The position numbers were made by a program, and so were the translations under genes. The notes below the pieces were generated by a model, which was not told where the DNA came from, searched no databases, and was given only the letters and a program-made list of their open reading frames with translations. This document shows, one piece after another, positions 29,678-42,344 of a stretch of 56,344 nt of DNA. Origin of the DNA: a virus; the IMG/VR virus record IMGVR_UViG_3300036790_000300, positions 1-56,344 of that record. One strand, written 5' to 3'. Within the stretch, counting starts at the first letter, position 1, and each line of letters starts with the position of its first letter.

Positions 29678-29702
29678 AGCCCGCGAGGCCGAGGCGCGGG
29701 CT
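29678..29702. terminator. Hairpin between convergent operons
   Basis: Perfect 8-bp stem AGCCCGCG/CGCGGGCT with a 9-nt loop, just past the RHH stop and overlapping the stop of the leftward gene. The T-tracts are weak, so it may be a bidirectional terminator or an mRNA 3'-end stabiliser. Confidence 0.55.
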
Positions 29703-31356
29703 ATTCGTTTGTCTGGATTGGTGAAGACGCGCGCAAGGTAGTTCCATCCCACATGAAGTTCTGCACGCTGCACAACCCCGCCCCGGTGCCTATCGTGCCT
29801 CCACCGGTCGAGTTGCTGGGCCACGCTAAGGTGAACGGTCCGCCAGTGGCAGGCTGACAGACCATGAAGGTGAAGTTGCTGAAGGCGGCATTGCTACCTG
29901 GGGTAGAAATGGTGAACGTGGACGTAGCGTTTGCGGACAGCGTGGCTTTCTGCCAATTGCTCCCAGAACTGAAGGCGCACGCGCTCGTGCAGGAGTAGGT
30001 GGCTGAATTTCCGGTATACATGCCACCGTTCTTCAGCCAAGTCGATCCGAAGTTGATCTGGCTGGCAGTGGTCGAACTTCCGGTAAATCCGAATATGCAG
30101 GTGCCGGTGCCGTTTTGCTTGGTCACAACATTCGATTCATCGAAAATATTGCACCACGTTGTCTTGGTCGCATTGAATCCTAGATTAGTGTCCGCGGCCC
30201 ATCGGTTGGACGTGGAGCCATAGATGCGGATGCCGTTCACCATGGCCTGAGGCTCTGTTGATTGATCGAACTGGATGGCCGTAGCCACATCGTCTGGACC
30301 GCTCGTGCCCATGTATGCCGTACCGCCCAGAATGCGCGTCAGCAATCCGCGAATATGAAAGCCGTAGGTGGTCGGGGAATCGCAGTACTCCTCGGCCAGC
30401 GTTCCACCGCCGGCATACTCGTCGAAGCAGGCCGTCATTACGGTGTCCCATGCATGGTTGAAGCTGAAGTAATTGTTCCCGCCCACGTGGTCCTGCCAGC
30501 CAATCGAGCAATTATGCAGGACGTTATATGACACGTTGTCATCGGTGAAACTTCCCTGCGTACCATTCCCGCCTGAGATGTAAACGCATGTGCTTCCTGC
30601 GGGACCAGGTGTCAGTCCCAGACTCAGGCCAAATCCAACATGGGAGACGAATCCCTCATTTCCGCCCGCACCAACACCGGCATCATCTCCCCAGTAAACG
30701 CCTTTGCCGTTCACCGCTAGATTAATGATGTTGGACACGGCGATGTTCACATGGTGGCCCTGCATCACCCAGACGAGAACGGGGGAGAGGCTGTTCCCGT
30801 TTATCGTTCCCGGGCCATAAATACCAACGTGATTCGGTGTCTGCGATGTGCCGGTGCTTACAAGCGCCGTGCTTGCAGCCGTGCCGCCAGAGAGCGTCAT
30901 AGGCCCATCTCCATCGACAATCCAGTTGCCCAGAAATGGCACCGTGCAACTCGTTCCGAAGTAGGCTGTCGACGGAGGAAAGTAGAGCACGGCTCCAACA
31001 CTCAAAGCATACGTGGCCGCGTTCGTGAGCGCCGTGCAGTTGTCCGTCGCCCCATCCCCAACGGCGCCGAACCAGCGAACGTCGGTGCGCGGCAGTTTCA
31101 GGACCGCATCTGGGGCGCTTATCGGAACGGCGAATGCCGGTCCGCCGGTGGTGCCTATTGATCCCCAGGTGCCGTTCTGGCAGGTGTAAAGACCTCCATT
31201 GGGGGTCTGGAGTCTGATCGGAAGGACTGTCGTGCATGCACCGGTAGGAGCGCTGGAGACAGGCAGGATTTGCGGGTTGGTGACCTGGGCATACGCTGCA
31301 AGAGGTGTGAATAGCGCCGCTAGGAGCCCAAGTCTGAGCCATGCAAGTTTTGGCAT
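29701..31356 (-). CDS. Exported right-handed beta-helix (pectate-lyase-fold) protein
   Basis: A 551-aa protein. Residues 1-23 are a clear Sec signal peptide (LGLLAALFTPLAAYA, cut before Q). A 45-aa module (QVTNPQILPVSSAPTGACT ... LYTCQNGTWG) is shared with the next gene. Then comes DVRWFGAVGDGATDN, the usual entry to tailspike or glycanase beta-helices, and repeated Gly/Asn strands up to about residue 400, ending in a beta-rich C-domain. It is probably a polysaccharide-degrading enzyme or tailspike. A signal peptide is odd for a virion part that assembles in the cytoplasm. Confidence 0.75.
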   Translation of the reverse strand: MPKLAWLRLGLLAALFTPLAAYAQVTNPQILPVSSAPTGACTTVLPIRLQTPNGGLYTCQNGTWGSIGTTGGPAFAVPISAPDAVLKLPRTDVRWFGAVGDGATDNCTALTNAATYALSVGAVLYFPPSTAYFGTSCTVPFLGNWIVDGDGPMTLSGGTAASTALVSTGTSQTPNHVGIYGPGTINGNSLSPVLVWVMQGHHVNIAVSNIINLAVNGKGVYWGDDAGVGAGGNEGFVSHVGFGLSLGLTPGPAGSTCVYISGGNGTQGSFTDDNVSYNVLHNCSIGWQDHVGGNNYFSFNHAWDTVMTACFDEYAGGGTLAEEYCDSPTTYGFHIRGLLTRILGGTAYMGTSGPDDVATAIQFDQSTEPQAMVNGIRIYGSTSNRWAADTNLGFNATKTTWCNIFDESNVVTKQNGTGTCIFGFTGSSTTASQINFGSTWLKNGGMYTGNSATYSCTSACAFSSGSNWQKATLSANATSTFTISTPGSNAAFSNFTFMVCQPATGGPFTLAWPSNSTGGGTIGTGAGLCSVQNFMWDGTTLRASSPIQTNE

Positions 31357-31363
31357 GCTTGGC

Positions 31364-31981
31364 CTAATGTATCCGTGTCACGACGGGCTCGGTTTCCCAG
31401 GTAGGAGTGCCGGTGCCGCTTAAAGCCAGGACCGCGAAAGACAGGGTCGAATTAGCCGCTACAGCAAGCGGTATGCAGGTAGAAAACTGCAGCCCGGTGC
31501 TCGTTAGGTTTGCCGTGGGACCAATCGTGCTGGTCGATCTGCTCGTGCCTCCCGGTGTCGTATAGGTGGCCTGCACGGCTACCGTACCTCCCGATCCCGC
31601 CGTGGCGATAAACACCAATGGGCAGAACTGAAAGGTGGCTCCAGCGGGGGCGCTGGTGGTGTAAAGCGTCTGCACTCCCGTTGTACCCGATGCCCCAAGC
31701 CCGGTGAATGAGCCTTGATAGACAACGCAGGGCGTGGTCACGGTCGTTGCCGCGAGACAGGCTGCCGGCGTTAAGTTTGACGCTGGAGTCAGCACTCCCC
31801 AGGTACCGCTTTGGCAGCTATAGAGAACGCCGGCGGGCGCCAGTAGCTCGAGCGGCAGATTGGCGGTACACGCGCCCGAAGGGGCTGCGGATACCACGAT
31901 GATGCTGGGATTGGTCACTTGCGCCAGCGCTGGGATGGAAGAGAGCAGCAGGGCCAGGATCGCTAAAGCGTATCTCTTCAC
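31364..31981 (-). CDS. Exported 205-aa protein with shared N-terminal module
   Basis: GTG 31981 (GTGA overlap, AAAGGA upstream). Signal peptide residues 1-20 (RYALAILALLLSSIPALA, cut before Q). The following QVTNPSIIVVSAAPSGACT ... LYSCQSGTWG module matches the 551-aa protein. The C-terminal 120 residues form a beta-sandwich-like domain (FCPLVFIATAGSGGTVAVQA), perhaps carbohydrate-binding. It may work with the downstream beta-helix protein. Confidence 0.65.
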   Translation of the reverse strand: MKRYALAILALLLSSIPALAQVTNPSIIVVSAAPSGACTANLPLELLAPAGVLYSCQSGTWGVLTPASNLTPAACLAATTVTTPCVVYQGSFTGLGASGTTGVQTLYTTSAPAGATFQFCPLVFIATAGSGGTVAVQATYTTPGGTSRSTSTIGPTANLTSTGLQFSTCIPLAVAANSTLSFAVLALSGTGTPTWETEPVVTRIH

Positions 31982-34793: not shown

Positions 34794-36848
34794 CTAATTG
34801 CAATTGATCTCAGCTAGAGTCGGTCCTGCCGCCCACCACGTAGATATACCGGTTCCGGTTATGGCAGAGCCGGTGCAGGTTTTGATGTTGGTGTTGTTGG
34901 AGATGGTGTCATTGGCGCCGACGTTGATGGTTACGAAGACGTCGTTATAAAGACCATCGAACGCGGTGTAGGTTGTGGCTGAAGTATCCTGCAGGCTGAG
35001 GTGCTTGTAGTAGCTGAAGTGCAGCGTGCCGCCTGTATTGCTCGCTATGTTGGTCGTCACGTCGTACAAGGACAGACTCACGTCCGCGCCAGGGTTTCCG
35101 AAGTTGTTGCCGCCGATAGCGCCGCCGATATAGCCGGACGTGCCGATAGCGCCAAAGGTATTTACCGGCTGCTGGACTGTAGACGGGGGTTCCCCAATTA
35201 CGTTGTTGGGGAAGAACATATTCCAGACCGCCCAGAAAGGCCAGAGGCCGCCATCCTGCGTGAATTGGTTCAATATGAACCTGGATCCAAGCATTCCCTC
35301 GGTGCCGCCAGTGGCAAAGTCCGGACCTTCGCCGCCGATACCGGAACATGCCGGATCGGTACTCACTCCACCGGGGTTGGAACTGAAATTGGCGGGGTTC
35401 AGGGTAGGCGAAGTGCAGAACCCATTGATGGTGTTTTTGAAGTAGTTGCCGCCGGAGCCGGTGCCGAGATGGATGGCATCCCACCAAGAATCGTCCAGCC
35501 GGTTATCAGACACGTCCTCGTTGCCGTCGACGTTCGAGTAGTACCAGATATTGTGCGGTGCGATCTGGAGGAAGCTGTCTCGAAACCACGACCCCTGCCC
35601 TCCGGCGAGACAGACATTTCCGAGATAGTAGCGGTTGTAAAAGCCGCTGTCCTGCAGTTGACCGAATCCAAGCACGTGGTCCCAGTGCGAATCGAGGTCG
35701 GTCAGATCCACGCTGCAGTGAGGTTGGGTGTCCGTGAATCCGGATGCGTTATATGCTCCGCTGTTGTAATACCACTGCAGGTCGGCAGCGAAGAAGATCA
35801 TGGTGCCGCCGCTGTCCTGGCCGCTCGCGCTCTGCGATACGGTTCTTCCGGGTCCACCAAAGTTCTGGAAGCCGATGTTGTGTATCCACGAGTCAGTAGC
35901 GTTGCCCGTATCGTTGATGAGACCAATGTCGGCAGCGTGCCCAGAGCCGGCGCCGTTCAGGAGCACTCCGCCCATCGTGGTTTGACCGGAGTTGGCCGTA
36001 TACACGGTCCCATTGCAGGTGAAGGTCATCGATCCGTTCTGGGTAAACATGGCCTGCGTGGGATCGGACGTATTCAGCGTCGTGCTGTTTCCGTAAGGCG
36101 CCCCCGCTGGGCCTTCGATATCGACCGGTGCGGGTATCTGGATATTGCCGCCTATGGAATACGTGCCGGCCGGGATGTGAATCACCGGCGTGATGCTCTG
36201 CCCCTGGGTAAAGTACTGGCACATTGCAAGCTGGATCGTATTCACCATGGCTGTAGATGGGTTCGACGCCCAGCCGTGGCACCTGACGTCCCAGTTGCCG
36301 GCGTTGTGATCCTCGTTGCAGGTGTAGGTAGTGACCCCGCCGGACGTCTGGACCGTGGTCTCAGGTACCGGCGCGAGGGTGTTGTTGGTGACCCCACCCG
36401 CGACGCCTTCATTGGCGGCCGTCGACCCGCCTATATCTCCACCGCCGCTTCCGCCGCCAGGAGAGCAATCTGTACACACGGTGACCGGCTGGCTGTAGGA
36501 GTTTGGCGGTATCCCTCCGCTGCCAACCACATCGACTGGCGCGCCGGTGGCAGTCCAGAACAGCCATCCGCCGGGATTGATGGAATTAATGGCGTTCGCG
36601 GTGAACGGGTTAGGAAGTGACGTTCCGGTCGAGTTCGAGAAGATGGCTGCCTTGGTCTGCGTGCCGGTCAAATACACGGTCACCTGGCAGGATGGGACTA
36701 TGCCCTGCAGCGTGTTGGTGCTCTGGGTGCCCTGCACTTTTGCGGTGGTCCCGCCCTGCGAGCAATAGCCACTGATCGCTGCGGTGGTTTGCGCGAATAC
36801 AGGCAGCGTGAAGACCGCCATGAAGGACAATAGGAGCAATCTGCGCAT
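34794..36848 (-). CDS. Exported beta-helix tailspike-like protein
   Basis: A 684-aa protein with a signal peptide (residues 1-19, LLLLSFMAVFTLPVFA, cut before Q). Residues 20-130 are a beta-rich domain with Cys pairs, followed by a Gly-rich linker (SPGGGSGGGDIGG). From about 190 to 600 the repeated short strands and Asn/Gly turns (IHIPAGTYSIGGNIQIPAPV, DSWWDAIHLGTGSGGN) indicate a right-handed beta-helix. It heads the lysis operon. Tailspike, or secreted polysaccharide lyase; the signal peptide favours secretion. Confidence 0.72.
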   Translation of the reverse strand: MRRLLLLSFMAVFTLPVFAQTTAAISGYCSQGGTTAKVQGTQSTNTLQGIVPSCQVTVYLTGTQTKAAIFSNSTGTSLPNPFTANAINSINPGGWLFWTATGAPVDVVGSGGIPPNSYSQPVTVCTDCSPGGGSGGGDIGGSTAANEGVAGGVTNNTLAPVPETTVQTSGGVTTYTCNEDHNAGNWDVRCHGWASNPSTAMVNTIQLAMCQYFTQGQSITPVIHIPAGTYSIGGNIQIPAPVDIEGPAGAPYGNSTTLNTSDPTQAMFTQNGSMTFTCNGTVYTANSGQTTMGGVLLNGAGSGHAADIGLINDTGNATDSWIHNIGFQNFGGPGRTVSQSASGQDSGGTMIFFAADLQWYYNSGAYNASGFTDTQPHCSVDLTDLDSHWDHVLGFGQLQDSGFYNRYYLGNVCLAGGQGSWFRDSFLQIAPHNIWYYSNVDGNEDVSDNRLDDSWWDAIHLGTGSGGNYFKNTINGFCTSPTLNPANFSSNPGGVSTDPACSGIGGEGPDFATGGTEGMLGSRFILNQFTQDGGLWPFWAVWNMFFPNNVIGEPPSTVQQPVNTFGAIGTSGYIGGAIGGNNFGNPGADVSLSLYDVTTNIASNTGGTLHFSYYKHLSLQDTSATTYTAFDGLYNDVFVTINVGANDTISNNTNIKTCTGSAITGTGISTWWAAGPTLAEINCN

Positions 36849-36985: not shown

Positions 36986-37015
36986 TTCACTCCATTTCAA
37001 AATATGCTTTACAAT
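36986..37015 (+). promoter_or_regulatory. Promoter of the glycan cassette
   Basis: TTCACT, 18-bp spacer, TACAAT; start codon 19 bp beyond. AT-rich surroundings contrast with the GC-rich genes. Confidence 0.5.
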
Positions 37016-37033: not shown

Positions 37034-37549
37034 ATGGAAAACGATACAGCGAATTCGCCGCGACCAAAGAGGAAATATTCCCCGCGTCAACCCAAAGCTC
37101 CAGAAGTGAATTCCAATATTACGCAATTGGAAAGCGGCCTGATACCGCTCATGAATGCGCGACGCGAAGTGAACGGCAGAATGAATTTGGCTGCGCACAA
37201 AGCAAATCTGGCAAATCAGGAATTGCAGGCCGTGCAGGGTGAATTTGCGCAAATTGATGGCGAGATCAATTACACCCTACAGGTCATCTCGCAATTGAAG
37301 GGTGGCGCGCCAACTCCGCAAGGTTCATACATTGCGCCGGGGCCTCCGCAGCAATTCGGATACCCGCAATACCAGCAGCCGCCGTCTCCGCCGTACACCA
37401 ACGCCATTCCGTATCCGCAATTCCCCGGTCCGGCTGAAGGGGTGTCGAGCATGCCTGCGCCGAACCGCGGTCTTTACCCCGACGCAACGGATCGCCTTGA
37501 GAGTGCCGAAGATGTGCGTCAATTCGAGCTCGGGCAAAGAGGCCGGTAA
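37034..37549 (+). CDS. Coiled-coil, Pro/Gln/Tyr-rich protein heading the glycan cassette
   Basis: A 171-aa protein (ATG 37034, CGAGGAA upstream). Basic N-terminus (SPRPKRKYSPRQPKAP), a helical coil from about 35 to 90 (ANQELQAVQGEFAQIDGEIN), then a low-complexity tail of Pro, Gln, Tyr and Ser (QYQQPPSPPYTNAIPYPQFP). No enzyme motif. As first gene of a sugar-modification operon it may be the acceptor that is glycosylated, or a scaffold for the enzymes; both are inference. Confidence 0.65.
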   Translation: MENDTANSPRPKRKYSPRQPKAPEVNSNITQLESGLIPLMNARREVNGRMNLAAHKANLANQELQAVQGEFAQIDGEINYTLQVISQLKGGAPTPQGSYIAPGPPQQFGYPQYQQPPSPPYTNAIPYPQFPGPAEGVSSMPAPNRGLYPDATDRLESAEDVRQFELGQRGR

Positions 37550-38707
37550 GTGGCTGAAAAGAGAAAGATACTCTTCCTCGGCGACAGCGTGTCTGGTTTC
37601 AGCGGCCTCGGGCGCATCCACCGCGACGTAGCCACCAGGTGCGTCGCGCACTTGAGCGATGTGTTCAATGTGGCCACCATCGGCATCGGCGCGCCACCGA
37701 GCGCAGAGATTCCCTTGCGCCAGTATCCTGTGACGCACTGCGACGACTGGATCATCCACGACCTGCCGTATGCGTGGAAGGACCACGTCGGAGACCGGGC
37801 GGATGGGATTCTCTTCTCTTTCTGGGACGTCAGCCGGCTGCTGTGGATGGTCTACCCGGAGCAATGCCCGAATCTCGTGGTGCGGGACTTCCTGCTCAAT
37901 TTCAAGGGGGAAAAGTGGGTCTATCCCGCCGTGGATGGCGCTGGGCCGAACGGGCGTATGCCTGCCATGCTTGCCGACGCGCTCAGCAGGTTCGATCGCG
38001 TTCTGAACTACACCGAGTTCTCCGCGAGGATCACCGGCTATCCCGACGTCTGCACGCATGGCATCGATACCAGCGTCTTCTATCCGCGTAGCGGAGCGCG
38101 CGAAGCCATCGCGGCCAAGTTCGCCATGAATCTCGAGCCCGGAGAGCGCCTGATTGGCATCGTGGCGACAAACCAGCCGCGCAAGGACTGGGCTCTGGCA
38201 TTCGGTGCTTTGGCTCTTTTGAAGCAGCAGGGAATCAAGGCGACAGTGTGGATTCATACCGACACCGACATGCGGCACTGGGATCTGAAGGCACTCTACG
38301 TCGACTTTGGCCTCGCTCCCGATATCAGGGCGTTTGTGACGCCGTACGGGCTGCCAGATGACGACCTTGCCGCGCTCTACAGCGCGTGCGATGTGACGAT
38401 TGGACCGGGTGTCGAAGGGTTCGGCTACCCTGCGGCGGAGTCTCTATGCTGCGGGACACCGCACGTCACCGGAAGCTACGGCGGTCAAGCTGATTTTGTT
38501 CCCGAACCTATGCAGATCCATCCGATTGCCTATCGCTACGAGGGAGTCTTCGCGGTGCAGCGCCCGGTCCATGATTCGGCGAAGTTTGCCGAGCGCATCC
38601 GGTACTGGCTCCCGGACCGGTGGACTGGACCGGCGTGCGGGTGGGACGCCGTGGCATGGAACTCCGTCTGGCCCAAGTGGGAGCAGTGGTTCAGGGATGG
38701 CCTGTGA
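37550..38707 (+). CDS. GT-B glycosyltransferase (GT4-like)
   Basis: A 385-aa sugar transferase. N-terminal Rossmann half begins KILFLGDSVSGFSGLGRIH. The C-terminal half holds GIVATNQPRKDW, and GPGVEGFGYPAAESLCCGTP with the E289-x7-E297 motif that binds the nucleotide sugar in GT4 enzymes. GTG start abuts the preceding TAA. Activated-sugar donor and acceptor are unknown. A motif B copy lies in codons 31-34. Confidence 0.82.
   Translation: MAEKRKILFLGDSVSGFSGLGRIHRDVATRCVAHLSDVFNVATIGIGAPPSAEIPLRQYPVTHCDDWIIHDLPYAWKDHVGDRADGILFSFWDVSRLLWMVYPEQCPNLVVRDFLLNFKGEKWVYPAVDGAGPNGRMPAMLADALSRFDRVLNYTEFSARITGYPDVCTHGIDTSVFYPRSGAREAIAAKFAMNLEPGERLIGIVATNQPRKDWALAFGALALLKQQGIKATVWIHTDTDMRHWDLKALYVDFGLAPDIRAFVTPYGLPDDDLAALYSACDVTIGPGVEGFGYPAAESLCCGTPHVTGSYGGQADFVPEPMQIHPIAYRYEGVFAVQRPVHDSAKFAERIRYWLPDRWTGPACGWDAVAWNSVWPKWEQWFRDGL
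37639..37651. repeat. Motif B palindrome GTGCGT-C-GCGCAC
   Basis: One arm mismatch; inside the glycosyltransferase gene, 89 bp from its start. Confidence 0.55.
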
Positions 38708-39144
38708 GGCTCAACCTTGGCTGCTCCTCGAACCTGCGCGTTGGATTTGTGAACGTGGATATCGTCCAACCGTGCAACCAGCAGGCGGACCTCCGCGAGT
38801 TATGGCCGTGGCGGGACTCCTTCATCGACTACGTGCTGGCGATCGACATCATCGAACATTTGCCGGACAAGATCCGCACGATGAATCAGTTGTGGCGCGT
38901 CCTGAAGCCCGGCGCCATTGCTGAGATCGAGGTTCCGACCACCAACGGGGAATGCGCTTTCGCTGACCCGACGCATGTCTCGTACTGGAATCGGACGAGC
39001 TTCTACTACTTCCAGAAGGATCACGAACTGCACCGCTATGCCGAGCCTTACGGGATAAAAGCCTGTTTCGAAGTGGTAGAGGAGTACACCCGCACGATGC
39101 GCGACGGCCCCAAGTTGCTGATCAAGCTGAAGGCGGTCAAGTGA
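38704..39144 (+). CDS. SAM-dependent methyltransferase
   Basis: A 146-aa class I methyltransferase (GTG start, GTGA overlap). Motif I LNLGCSSN (3-10), acidic strand end VNVDI (17-20), and motif DIIEHLPD (48-55) followed by LWRVLKPGA. Shorter than typical (about 200 aa) but with the complete SAM site. The closest general class methylates sugars or small molecules, fitting the glycan context. Confidence 0.82.
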   Translation: MRLNLGCSSNLRVGFVNVDIVQPCNQQADLRELWPWRDSFIDYVLAIDIIEHLPDKIRTMNQLWRVLKPGAIAEIEVPTTNGECAFADPTHVSYWNRTSFYYFQKDHELHRYAEPYGIKACFEVVEEYTRTMRDGPKLLIKLKAVK

Positions 39145-40064
39145 CCGAGTACGTCTCGCTGGCGTCCAAAATCCCGCTTGCGGCTCCTATGGCGGTGTTT
39201 TTGGAGTTCACCAACCGGTGCAACTTTCGCTGCTCCTTCTGTCCTGAAAGTCTGCCGGACTACGCCGACAAGGCTGGCGGGATTCACAAGCTGTCATGGG
39301 GCCTGTTCGGGAAAATCTGCCGAGACATGAGGCAGATGCAGGGGATCAAGGTGCTCCGCTTCTACGGTCTAGGGGAAACCCTGATGCACCCCTCTGCCGT
39401 GTCTATGATCGCCGAAGCGTGTTCGATGAATCTGGCCGAGCGAACAGAGATGACGAGCAACGGCAGCCTGCTTTCCCCAAACACGTCCGCCAATCTCATT
39501 GCATCCGGACTGGGCACTTTGCACGTCAGCGTCTACGGGACCACGCAGGCGGAGATGAAGGAGTTCACCCTGTCGCCTATCCCGCCGGAGCGGATACGGG
39601 ACAACCTGTGGGCCTTCCTCGCCATCCGAGGGAAGTTCCGCAAACCGAAGCTGATCGTGAAGATCACGACGGAGCCTGACAAAGTCGATCGCTTTGCTTT
39701 CATGTTCCGCGACGTATGTGATGAATTGGACATCAAGCCGCTGCACAACTGGACCGGGCAGGACCGCCTGACCACCATCGGCAGACCTCACCAAAAGGCT
39801 GTCTGTCCGTCCCCGTTCTACATCATGAAAATCAACTCCGACGGCATTATCACCTGCTGCGCCACCGACTGGCGGCGCGACACCGCGGTGGGCAACGTCG
39901 CAGAGGAATCGCTCTCTGATATCTGGAATGGACAGCGCATGAGGGACTTCCGCCTGATGCACCTGAATCACAGGCGCTGCGACAACGCCGCGTGTGCGAA
40001 TTGCGACTTCATCGACAGCTTCCATGACGATCTGGACGCTGTCAGCCCGGAGGTTCTGGCGTGA
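39141..40064 (+). CDS. Radical-SAM/SPASM enzyme
   Basis: A 307-aa protein (GTG start). The CxxxCxxC iron-sulfur motif that cleaves SAM is C27-C31-C34 (TNRCNFRCSFC). GLGETLMHP (77-84) is the GGE-type motif. A C-terminal auxiliary cluster region has C222, C239/C240, C280, C285 and C288, a SPASM domain. SPASM enzymes modify peptides, or dehydrogenate or epimerise sugars. In this operon a sugar- or glycoprotein-modifying role is the best guess. Confidence 0.85.
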   Translation: MTEYVSLASKIPLAAPMAVFLEFTNRCNFRCSFCPESLPDYADKAGGIHKLSWGLFGKICRDMRQMQGIKVLRFYGLGETLMHPSAVSMIAEACSMNLAERTEMTSNGSLLSPNTSANLIASGLGTLHVSVYGTTQAEMKEFTLSPIPPERIRDNLWAFLAIRGKFRKPKLIVKITTEPDKVDRFAFMFRDVCDELDIKPLHNWTGQDRLTTIGRPHQKAVCPSPFYIMKINSDGIITCCATDWRRDTAVGNVAEESLSDIWNGQRMRDFRLMHLNHRRCDNAACANCDFIDSFHDDLDAVSPEVLA

Positions 40065-40855
40065 AGCTGAACCTCTGTTGCATGTTCCACGACGAAGTTC
40101 CGTATCTCAAAGAGTGGATCGAATTCCACCGAATGATGGGAGTCGAGAAATTCTATCTCTACAACCGTCTATCCAATGATGCCTGGCAGCCCATCCTTCA
40201 GCCCTACATTGAGTGGGGAATCGTGGAACTGACGGACTGGCCATACCAGCGGCTGTATCAGGGCCATCGCGAAGCGTTCATCGACTCGCACCAGCACTGC
40301 ATCGACAGACTTCGCGGAAGTCATGAATGGCTGGCTATGATCGATTGCGACGAGTTCCTATTCTCTCCGGCTTACGCGACAGTCGCTGAGGCCATATCCA
40401 AGATGCCAGAGTCATGGGGAGCGATCGGAGCGCACTGGGTGGTCTTTGGGCCGGGAGACGAAACGGCGTACCGAAACGCACCGGTGATTGAGCGCTTTAC
40501 CTGGCGGCCGAACGCGGTGAACTATTTCAACCGCTGGTACAAGAGCATCGTGCGCCTTGACGATCCCGATCTCAACACGCTGGGCAGCACACACCGCTAT
40601 CGGACTCAGGCCGGGACGTTCAACGAAGACGGTCTGCTGCTCGATGGCAACGAATCTCCTCCGGTATCTTCATTCCTGCGAATCAACCACTACTTCACGA
40701 AGTCGCGCCCGGAGTGGGAAATCAGGCACCCTCTGGTTGAAGACGGCATCCCGTATGAGCGCGATGAAAGACGTTGGAACGATGTGCAACGGCGGGACGT
40801 GGATGACAGAACGATCCAGCGGTTTCTGCCTGAATTGAAAGAGAGGCTGAAGTGA
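40061..40855 (+). CDS. GT92/DUF23-like glycosyltransferase
   Basis: A 264-aa GT-A type enzyme (GTG start). EVPYLKEWIEFHRMMGVEKF (12-31) is the hallmark N-terminal block of GT92/GT-A-like families; the metal-binding DxD-like motif is DCDEF (95-99). The C-terminal part with RINHYFTKSRPEW fits the acceptor side. Known members add galactose-type sugars; the substrate here is unknown. Confidence 0.8.
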   Translation: MKLNLCCMFHDEVPYLKEWIEFHRMMGVEKFYLYNRLSNDAWQPILQPYIEWGIVELTDWPYQRLYQGHREAFIDSHQHCIDRLRGSHEWLAMIDCDEFLFSPAYATVAEAISKMPESWGAIGAHWVVFGPGDETAYRNAPVIERFTWRPNAVNYFNRWYKSIVRLDDPDLNTLGSTHRYRTQAGTFNEDGLLLDGNESPPVSSFLRINHYFTKSRPEWEIRHPLVEDGIPYERDERRWNDVQRRDVDDRTIQRFLPELKERLK

Positions 40856-41484
40856 TCCCAGTTTTCATTCCATACGTGAACCGCCCCGATCTGCTTCAAC
40901 GCGCAGTGGGCAGTGTGCCTGATTCCAGCGAGTGCCGGGCACAGATAATAAACAACTCTGGAGCGTGGATTCCCTTCGATGGCGTTGTTGAACCATCCGT
41001 GCCTCTCACTTTTTCCCAGTCTCAGAACTGGATGTTGAGTTTGGCCTGGGATCGGTGGGACGCCCCGTTCTACCTCTTCATGCACTCGGACGCCGAGGCT
41101 GGGGAGGGGACTGTGGAGAAACTTGTGGAAATGGCGCGAAACCAGACGGGTCAGTGGGGAGCTATCTTCACCGCTTACGACGCCCTGGCAGCCTTCAACG
41201 TGGAGGCCATGACGGCCATCCGCGGCTGGGACACGATGCTCAGTTGGTACTGCGGAGACAATGACTGTTACCGCCGCCTGCGCCTCGCCGGATACCCTAC
41301 GCTGGAGTCGAATCTACCGGTCAAGCACACGCCCTCGCAGACGCTCAACAGCGACCCCGAAGTGGCGCGCCGGGTGAACCTTGAGATTCCGTTCCGCGAG
41401 TCCTACTATAGGGCCAAGTGGGGCGGTAATCCGGGTCAGGAAATCTTCACGAATCCATTTGACTCGGTGGGTTCTTTGAAGTAG
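40852..41484 (+). CDS. GT2-like glycosyltransferase
   Basis: A 210-aa protein (GTG start). It begins VFIPYVNRPDLLQRAVGSV, a GT2 nucleotide-binding start; FYLFMHSDAE (73-82) has the metal-binding Asp region; WYCGDNDCYRRLRLAGYP (about 130-147) matches the GT2 EDxD-RxRxxG acceptor block. Small for GT2, but all landmarks are in order. Its last 49 bp overlap the convergent late operon, and no terminator separates them. Confidence 0.72.
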   Translation: MIPVFIPYVNRPDLLQRAVGSVPDSSECRAQIINNSGAWIPFDGVVEPSVPLTFSQSQNWMLSLAWDRWDAPFYLFMHSDAEAGEGTVEKLVEMARNQTGQWGAIFTAYDALAAFNVEAMTAIRGWDTMLSWYCGDNDCYRRLRLAGYPTLESNLPVKHTPSQTLNSDPEVARRVNLEIPFRESYYRAKWGGNPGQEIFTNPFDSVGSLK

Positions 41485-42344
41485 GCACATGGAAAGCGAA
41501 ACTGACATGGATGAACAGAATCGAAGCATCGACTCAAGTGACGGGGCAACTCTTTACCCGAGCACCGCTCGACATCTGCGAGATTTTCTGAAGCTAGGTC
41601 GGCTATTTTGGATCGCTCGTCCTGGTCCCAGGTTATCTCCGGATGAATCAGAAACGCCTCCGTCGCCAGACCATCCGCGTTCATAGCCTCGACCCACTCC
41701 TCGCGTGTGCCCTCGTAGCGCTCCCGGAAGACGGGCTCCCAATTGCCATCAAATCCCCCGCCGTCTCGCTTGCGGAAGCGCAATTCCTGACTGCGTGGGT
41801 GCAGCCAGCCTTTCGTCAGCGGGCCATGCCTGCGGCCCTCGCGCATCGATCCCAGTACGACGGCCACGATCGTCACCGGCAGGCCGTACAGCGCCCCTTC
41901 CAGCGTCCGCCAGTCTCGCATCTCCTGTAAGGCCCTACGCTCGTTCCAGCGGTCGCAGAGCACCACCCTGCGCAGTCCTCCAGGCACGGTGAAGCACGAG
42001 GGTATCCAATCTCCCAGCGGTGCAGGATGACGCCACGCAGGGCCGGTGCGCAGGCACCACACGATGATTTCAGCCAGAGCGGAACAATGCTCCGCCAGCC
42101 CCAGCAGGTCGCTCTGCTCGGTCTCGATTGGCCGAGAAAGCGCCAGGCGCATGACTTCATCGCTGGCAGCCTTCCCTGGGTCGTCGGAAGTGTGTTGGAG
42201 GCCGTGCTCTACGCCGCGGGTGAGCAGTTGATGGAAACTGAGCGCTTCTCGCTCAAGACGAGCGGCCAGTTGCGCCTGCTTCGGGCAGATGTCGAGGCTA
42301 TTGAGGAGCGCTGCGCTGGGCGGCACGGAGTCTTTCCAGTTCAC
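41436..42344 (-). CDS. Cas4/AddB-like Fe-S PD-(D/E)XK protein (tentative)
   Basis: A 302-aa protein; GTG 42344 or, with a better ribosome site, GTG 42326. Cys20 in SLDICPKQAQL and the terminal trio in RCFDSVHPCQFRFPC are arranged like the Fe-S cluster of Cas4/AddB nucleases. RVVLCDRWNERR and WRTLEGALYGLP resemble the Asp and the Q/ExxxY region, but a clean ExK is missing, so it may be inactive or unrelated. It ends the late operon, beside ejection proteins. Confidence 0.5.
   Translation of the reverse strand: MNWKDSVPPSAALLNSLDICPKQAQLAARLEREALSFHQLLTRGVEHGLQHTSDDPGKAASDEVMRLALSRPIETEQSDLLGLAEHCSALAEIIVWCLRTGPAWRHPAPLGDWIPSCFTVPGGLRRVVLCDRWNERRALQEMRDWRTLEGALYGLPVTIVAVVLGSMREGRRHGPLTKGWLHPRSQELRFRKRDGGGFDGNWEPVFRERYEGTREEWVEAMNADGLATEAFLIHPEITWDQDERSKIADLASENLADVERCSGKELPRHLSRCFDSVHPCQFRFPCAYFKEPTESNGFVKIS

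Follow-up and report, generated by a model that had tools for sequence, protein, structure and literature searches.

The window analyzed here is a whole IMG/VR virus record (IMGVR_UViG_3300036790_000300; 56,344 nucleotides). Positions 37034-41484 of its plus strand are filled by six open reading frames (ORFs), well supported as a predicted cassette that builds a glycan and edits its sugars. This reading rests on the family profiles of the enzymes, the genomic neighborhoods of the relatives of the radical S-adenosylmethionine (radical-SAM) enzyme and the sugar-nucleotide enzymes found in sister cassettes. On balance, the cassette probably glycosylates a virion protein of the phage itself. Its frame of two glycosyltransferases (GTs), a GT-B and a GT2 enzyme, is already known but little studied, and the combination with a Twitch-type radical-SAM enzyme is new. 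The six ORFs are as follows:

37034..37549, plus strand: ORF1, 171 aa, coiled-coil with a Pro/Gln/Tyr-rich tail; ATG start with AGGAA upstream, TAA stop abutting the next GTG
37550..38707, plus strand: GT-B (GT4-type) glycosyltransferase, 385 aa, first conserved bookend; PF00534 (7.9e-9), phrog_2170 (1.4e-21)
38704..39144, plus strand: class I SAM methyltransferase, 146 aa, GTG start; PF13489 (7e-8)
39141..40064, plus strand: radical-SAM enzyme with a Twitch domain, BtrN-like, 307 aa; PF04055 (2e-9), PF13186 (7e-14)
40061..40855, plus strand: GT92/GT2_4 glycosyltransferase, 264 aa, DxD at 95-97 (DCD); PF01697 (7e-19)
40852..41484, plus strand: divergent GT2 (GT-A fold), 210 aa, second conserved bookend; phrog_29879 galactosyltransferase (1.7e-13), weak in Pfam (0.097)

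All six ORFs of the set proposed in a first-pass annotation are present on the plus strand, those for the five enzymes with families supported by Pfam and PHROG, between a fiber-like gene (34794-36848) and an exonuclease-like gene (41436-42344). They do follow one another without gaps, as had been claimed: at the first of the five junctions, the TAA stop of ORF1 abuts the GTG start of the GT-B gene, and at the other four (38704, 39141, 40061 and 40852), a GTGA overlap of four bases is found. This arrangement implies that the genes after ORF1 would form one translationally coupled message. A methyltransferase start at 38620 was rejected, as it falls within the GT-B gene, and GTG 38704 was taken instead. 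No membrane segment is predicted in the cassette proteins. No gene for nucleotide-sugar synthesis lies within the cassette, which must therefore draw on the sugar nucleotides of the host; hence, of the "complete pathway" described earlier, the building and the editing are retained on the grounds of profiles and context, and the completeness is not.

The radical-SAM enzyme carries the CX3CX2C motif (C27, C31 and C34), also kept in two bacterial relatives, and the first half of its original label, radical-SAM/SPASM, was borne out by this motif and PF04055. The second half had to be replaced. A SPASM motif has seven cysteines and two auxiliary clusters (PMC6231123), whereas a Twitch domain has four cysteines and one fully ligated auxiliary cluster (PMC6231123, PMC9012708). 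In the C-terminal part of the enzyme, C222-X12-G-X4-C240 and C285-X2-C288 are visible and again kept in the two bacterial relatives. These are only the first four of the seven motif cysteines, which rules out a full SPASM domain. The C-terminal domain is assigned as Twitch because of these four cysteines and of a BtrN profile match extending over both domains.

Compared with the PDB, a profile of three sequences matched BtrN best (7e-25), then MoaA and DesII and, lower down, cytosylglucuronate decarboxylase. Three of these four solved matches (BtrN, DesII and cytosylglucuronate decarboxylase) act on sugars or cyclitols. BtrN, the radical-SAM Twitch dehydrogenase of butirosin, has the four auxiliary-cluster cysteines in the same pattern. 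However, it is distant in sequence; its own reaction is the oxidation of an aminocyclitol (DOIA dehydrogenase). The structure model, built from a three-row alignment (pLDDT, the predicted local distance difference test score, of 62), adds a fold search that gives weak support only. Because function in this subfamily is hard to predict from sequence (PMC6231123), "dehydrogenase" is only a guess for the window enzyme; that it acts on a sugar is the better-founded claim, given the context. Its nearest bacterial relative (L087, 39%; L numbers are our handles for the compared sequences) has an FkbM methyltransferase on one side and an acyltransferase-like gene on the other, with a gene of the NeuB sialate-synthase type in the vicinity. 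In a sample of 299 genomes from the phylum of L087, 12 contain relatives at E<=1e-30, and in several of these, the neighbors are NAD-dependent epimerases, C-methyltransferases (Methyltransf_13/14), FkbM methyltransferases or GT4 enzymes. Judged by these neighbors, the bacterial relatives are set in surface-glycan clusters.

The identities given at first to the GT-B, methyltransferase, GT92-like and GT2-like enzymes agree with the Pfam and PHROG profiles and, for the GT2, with a GT-A fold match. The closest solved relative of the GT-B is the chlorella-virus glycosyltransferase B736L, its best PDB match (2.4e-9). The match falls mostly on the nucleotide-sugar half, and B736L comes from a eukaryotic virus. 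The methyltransferase has a relative in L038, 67% identical and at the same cassette position, and the GT92 has one in the L069 cassette (47%); against the PDB, the GT92 gave no significant match. The model of the terminal GT2 (pLDDT 91.7, from a 26-row alignment) matches GT-A enzymes in the PDB.

A search with the GT-B profile led to 79 viral loci, in which gene limits are approximate (simple gene caller and clustering). The cassettes occupy three sites among late genes. At site A, they run antisense between the fiber-like and exonuclease-like genes, as in the window. At site B, they lie on the same strand between terminase and portal genes, both homologous to the window's own. At site C, which belongs to an unrelated lineage, they follow, on the same strand, the portal and head-morphogenesis genes and precede the head protease and major head genes. 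In a further group of 14 loci, D, the GT-B has no GT2 neighbor and is found near a Sak4-like early gene. Nearly all complete A-C cassettes inspected begin with the GT-B and have the terminal GT2 in the same run, as does the window, with 0 to ~10 genes in between. The exceptions are L043, without the pair, and L042, where the GT2 is just upstream. The GT-B...GT2 frame is therefore a recurrent feature of the A-C cassettes.

The shortest cassettes (e.g., L010, L019 and L024) hold nothing between the two bookends. The longest contain other GT2s, a PLOD-type GT, GT92, methyltransferases (Methyltransf_24, FkbM and Methyltransf_11), an epimerase, UDP-glucose dehydrogenase, UDP-galactopyranose mutase, a DegT aminotransferase and GNAT acetyltransferases. 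A B12-binding radical-SAM enzyme occurs within four GT-B/GT2 cassettes (L009, L025, L043 and L052). For the one copy tested, that of L052, the best match among solved structures was AprD4 (1.3e-10), an enzyme whose substrate is the pseudosaccharide paromamine. With the window included, five such cassettes thus appear to have recruited radical-SAM enzymes, of two unrelated classes.

Only two facts were taken from the trees, in which the window and L035 were automatically labeled group B, their sequence including the portal gene. The site-C GT-Bs form one clade (99), whereas the site-C terminal GT2s fall into two distant GT2 subtypes, with at least four label changes; the window GT2 clusters with site-A GT2s and with two from site C. 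It is 59% identical to the GT2 of L006, while between these two phages the virion proteins at the flanks share only 29-39% identity. This pattern argues that exchange affects the cassette end and the cargo more readily than the frame. In L006 and L048, the GT-B and the GT2 are kept apart by some 4 kb of unrelated small phage genes, among them, by eye, a probable phage Gp37/Gp68-like protein.

The same frame is present in isolated phages. In Synechococcus phage S-CBS4, the order is portal, hypothetical protein, GT, galactosyltransferase, methyltransferase, then protease and major capsid protein (MCP). Its gp14-gp16 comprise profile homologues of both window bookends (GT-B, 1.7e-25; GT2, 1.6e-30) with the methyltransferase adjoining. 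Compared with the window, this set is inside the head operon, lacks radical-SAM and GT92 enzymes, belongs to another lineage and has putative, annotated functions. In Pontimonas phage phiPsal1, the order is MCP, GT, methyltransferase, GT2 and neck protein. Genes 010-012 (GT4, methyltransferase and GT2) represent the same GT-B/methyltransferase/GT2 set, again recognized by the profiles (4.3e-28 for the GT-B and 4.7e-34 for the GT2), but the methyltransferase is on the other strand and radical-SAM and GT92 enzymes are absent. In Microcystis phage Mae-JY09, a GT-B adjoins the MCP. As S-CBS4 and phiPsal1, but not all relatives, have the set in the head operon on the same strand, this location is an optional rather than a defining trait; the window cassette sits among late genes but antisense to them. 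The first-pass annotation knew of no described phage system with exactly this set. This is accurate for the set, as neither a single sequence nor a two-row profile found viral relatives of the radical-SAM enzyme, apart from weak distant matches among isolates; the kind of cassette, on the contrary, is present in S-CBS4 and phiPsal1. No literature treating the GT-B/GT2 pair as a system was found, in a search that left subscription journals mostly outside.

From these elements, we infer the substrate, the reaction order, the acceptor and the biological benefit of the cassette. The enzymes would be soluble and cytosolic and would all be translated from a single coupled message. One or both of the conserved GTs would begin a short glycan on a protein acceptor and lengthen it, using host sugar nucleotides, and the GT92 would attach another residue. 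The radical-SAM Twitch enzyme would oxidize or otherwise edit a sugar carbon, in the manner of BtrN, and the methyltransferase would add an O-methyl cap to the sugar. The acceptor would most likely be a virion protein (capsid or tail), and the phage would benefit by masking of the virion or tuning of adsorption. Between the acceptors first offered, a virion protein or host surface glycan, the virion protein is favored without being proven, because of the head-operon synteny in unrelated phages, the soluble enzymes, the absence of GtrA and the many records without a detectable recombinase. To our knowledge, few phages have been shown to glycosylate their virions, and radical-SAM editing has not been reported for the virion glycans of mycobacteriophages. 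In the latter, glycans decorate the C-termini of capsid and tail-tube proteins (Freeman et al. 2023, as cited in PMC12619734). Their GTs are phage-encoded, as in the window.

Several points weigh against a virion acceptor. The cassettes of the window and of the other site-A loci run antisense to the late genes, as a moron under its own regulation would, and the window phage is temperate. The group D relatives of the GT-B lie away from head genes. The glycan and the acceptor are predicted here from genes, and a peripheral, soluble set could also modify a lipid-linked or lipopolysaccharide (LPS) core acceptor at the inner face of the membrane.

A rival explanation is lysogenic conversion, in which the host LPS core or O-antigen is altered and rival phages are blocked from adsorbing. 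It is possible but rather unlikely. Morons are often antisense to late genes, and the cassette has this orientation with its own promoter region. An integrase is encoded in the window, the bacterial radical-SAM homologues lie within surface-glycan clusters, and a GtrB-like conversion protein has been described among Acidobacteriota viral operational taxonomic units (PMC11924767). However, the gtr serotype-conversion clusters of temperate phages, which also consist of phage-borne glycosyltransferases, include a GtrA flippase and membrane-bound GTs. The window cassette has neither, no membrane protein is encoded in it, and a GtrA-type flippase is absent from the 25 related records as well. In addition, the same GT pair is co-oriented within the head operon of other phages, and several related records of 50-57 kb (which may be incomplete) lack a tyrosine or serine recombinase.

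DNA hypermodification, in which the GTs decorate modified bases against restriction, is an unlikely function of the cassette and deserves very little weight. Virus-encoded GTs do put diverse glycans on DNA (Pyle 2024, as cited in PMC12619734). However, a dCMP/dUMP hydroxymethylase of the thymidylate-synthase family is absent from the window and 24 related records (with positive controls detected), the GT92, Twitch radical-SAM and FkbM partners speak for an ordinary carbohydrate, and the cassettes are associated with head genes. A search for TET/JBP dioxygenases gave no match, but its positive control was silent too. A patchwork of acquired genes without joint function (drifting morons) is just as improbable: the cargo is highly variable, and the radical-SAM gene and ORF1 occur only in this phage among the collections searched, but the four-base overlaps at four junctions are perfect, the motifs of each enzyme are intact and the ends are conserved in sister phages. 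Least probable of all, ORF1 would be a peptide substrate whose Pro/Gln/Tyr-rich tail is modified by the radical-SAM enzyme and the GTs (as a glycopeptide or like a ribosomally synthesized and post-translationally modified peptide); its place at the head of the coupled message, its disordered Tyr-rich tail and the small coiled-coil proteins of another family flanking seven related cassettes are consistent with this, but it is absent from all relatives found and has no precursor-like cysteine.

ORF1 does have the coiled-coil and the Pro/Gln/Tyr-rich composition first attributed to it. Its tail contains 29% P, 12% Q and 10% Y and is predicted to be disordered, the protein has no cysteine, and the coding score is weak. 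As no relatives were detected in the collections searched, related phage cassettes included, its membership in a single six-gene set is unproven; it is possibly an accessory or acceptor protein of the cassette. Seven related GT cassettes have, at one edge, a small coiled-coil protein of a family that shares the core EIPxLxxTIxAL and an acidic C-terminus (L025:6337-7017, L029:8951-9649, L031:9599-9985, L037:14788-15423, L039:10468-11100, L042:9549-9995 and L043:7019-7426). One member was compared with Pfam and gave no match. ORF1 was rejected as a member of this family, its profile score being no higher than that of composition-matched shuffles.

Three further features border the cassette:

34794..36848, minus strand: fiber-like protein at the cassette flank, with a signal peptide and a conserved N-terminus; divergent from the cassette in sister phages
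36986..37015, plus strand: promoter-like site TTCACT-18-TACAAT in the divergent gap upstream of ORF1; not above chance
41436..42344, minus strand: flank at the other edge, a distant homologue of Tunturi_1 gp38 (annotated exonuclease)

The promoter of its own that was attributed to the cassette is required by its orientation, antisense to the late genes; the site at 36986-37015 is at chance level, the consensus scan having found 2 sites with 1.9 expected. At the other edge, the exonuclease-like gene converges on that of the terminal GT2, and their 3' ends share 49 bases (41436-41484).

The late genes of the window are on the minus strand. Besides the integrase, the phage encodes an Erf annealing protein, a helicase and an endolysin, and it is temperate. 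Its TerL is 27% identical over 97% to that of the Tunturiibacter phages Tunturi_1/2, and Tunturi_1 matches 12 window genes (TerL and eleven more). The terminase, portal, head and tail genes shared with these Acidobacteriota phages suggest that the host of this soil phage is probably an acidobacterium. No annotated GT is present in Tunturi_1. Apparent Sec signal peptides (e.g., MRRLLLLSFMAVFTLPVFAQ) start fiber- or spike-like genes of presumed Acidobacteriota phages: in the window, at 34794-36848, 31364-31981 and 29701-31356 (all minus strand), and elsewhere, in L007-L010, L014, L015 and L105 (10371-18690, Tunturi_1 gp12-gp14). Sec-type signal peptides are unusual on phage tail proteins, and their presence on fiber and spike genes is possibly a trait of the whole lineage.

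As a tentative extension, phages may have repeatedly recruited BtrN-like Twitch and B12-type (AprD4-like) radical-SAM enzymes, which would furnish their virions with non-standard sugars (keto, deoxy or C-modified). With the cargo exchanged inside the conserved pair of GTs, these sugars would serve as a fast-changing particle coat. The two-GT frame spans phages of cyanobacteria, actinobacteria and, presumably, Acidobacteriota. A frame with interchangeable sugar-editing cargo would, if confirmed, allow a simple prediction from gene content of whether a virion is glycosylated and of the chemistry involved. Likewise, a role of radical-SAM enzymes in virion glycosylation would extend the sugar-editing chemistry of antibiotic pathways to virus particles.

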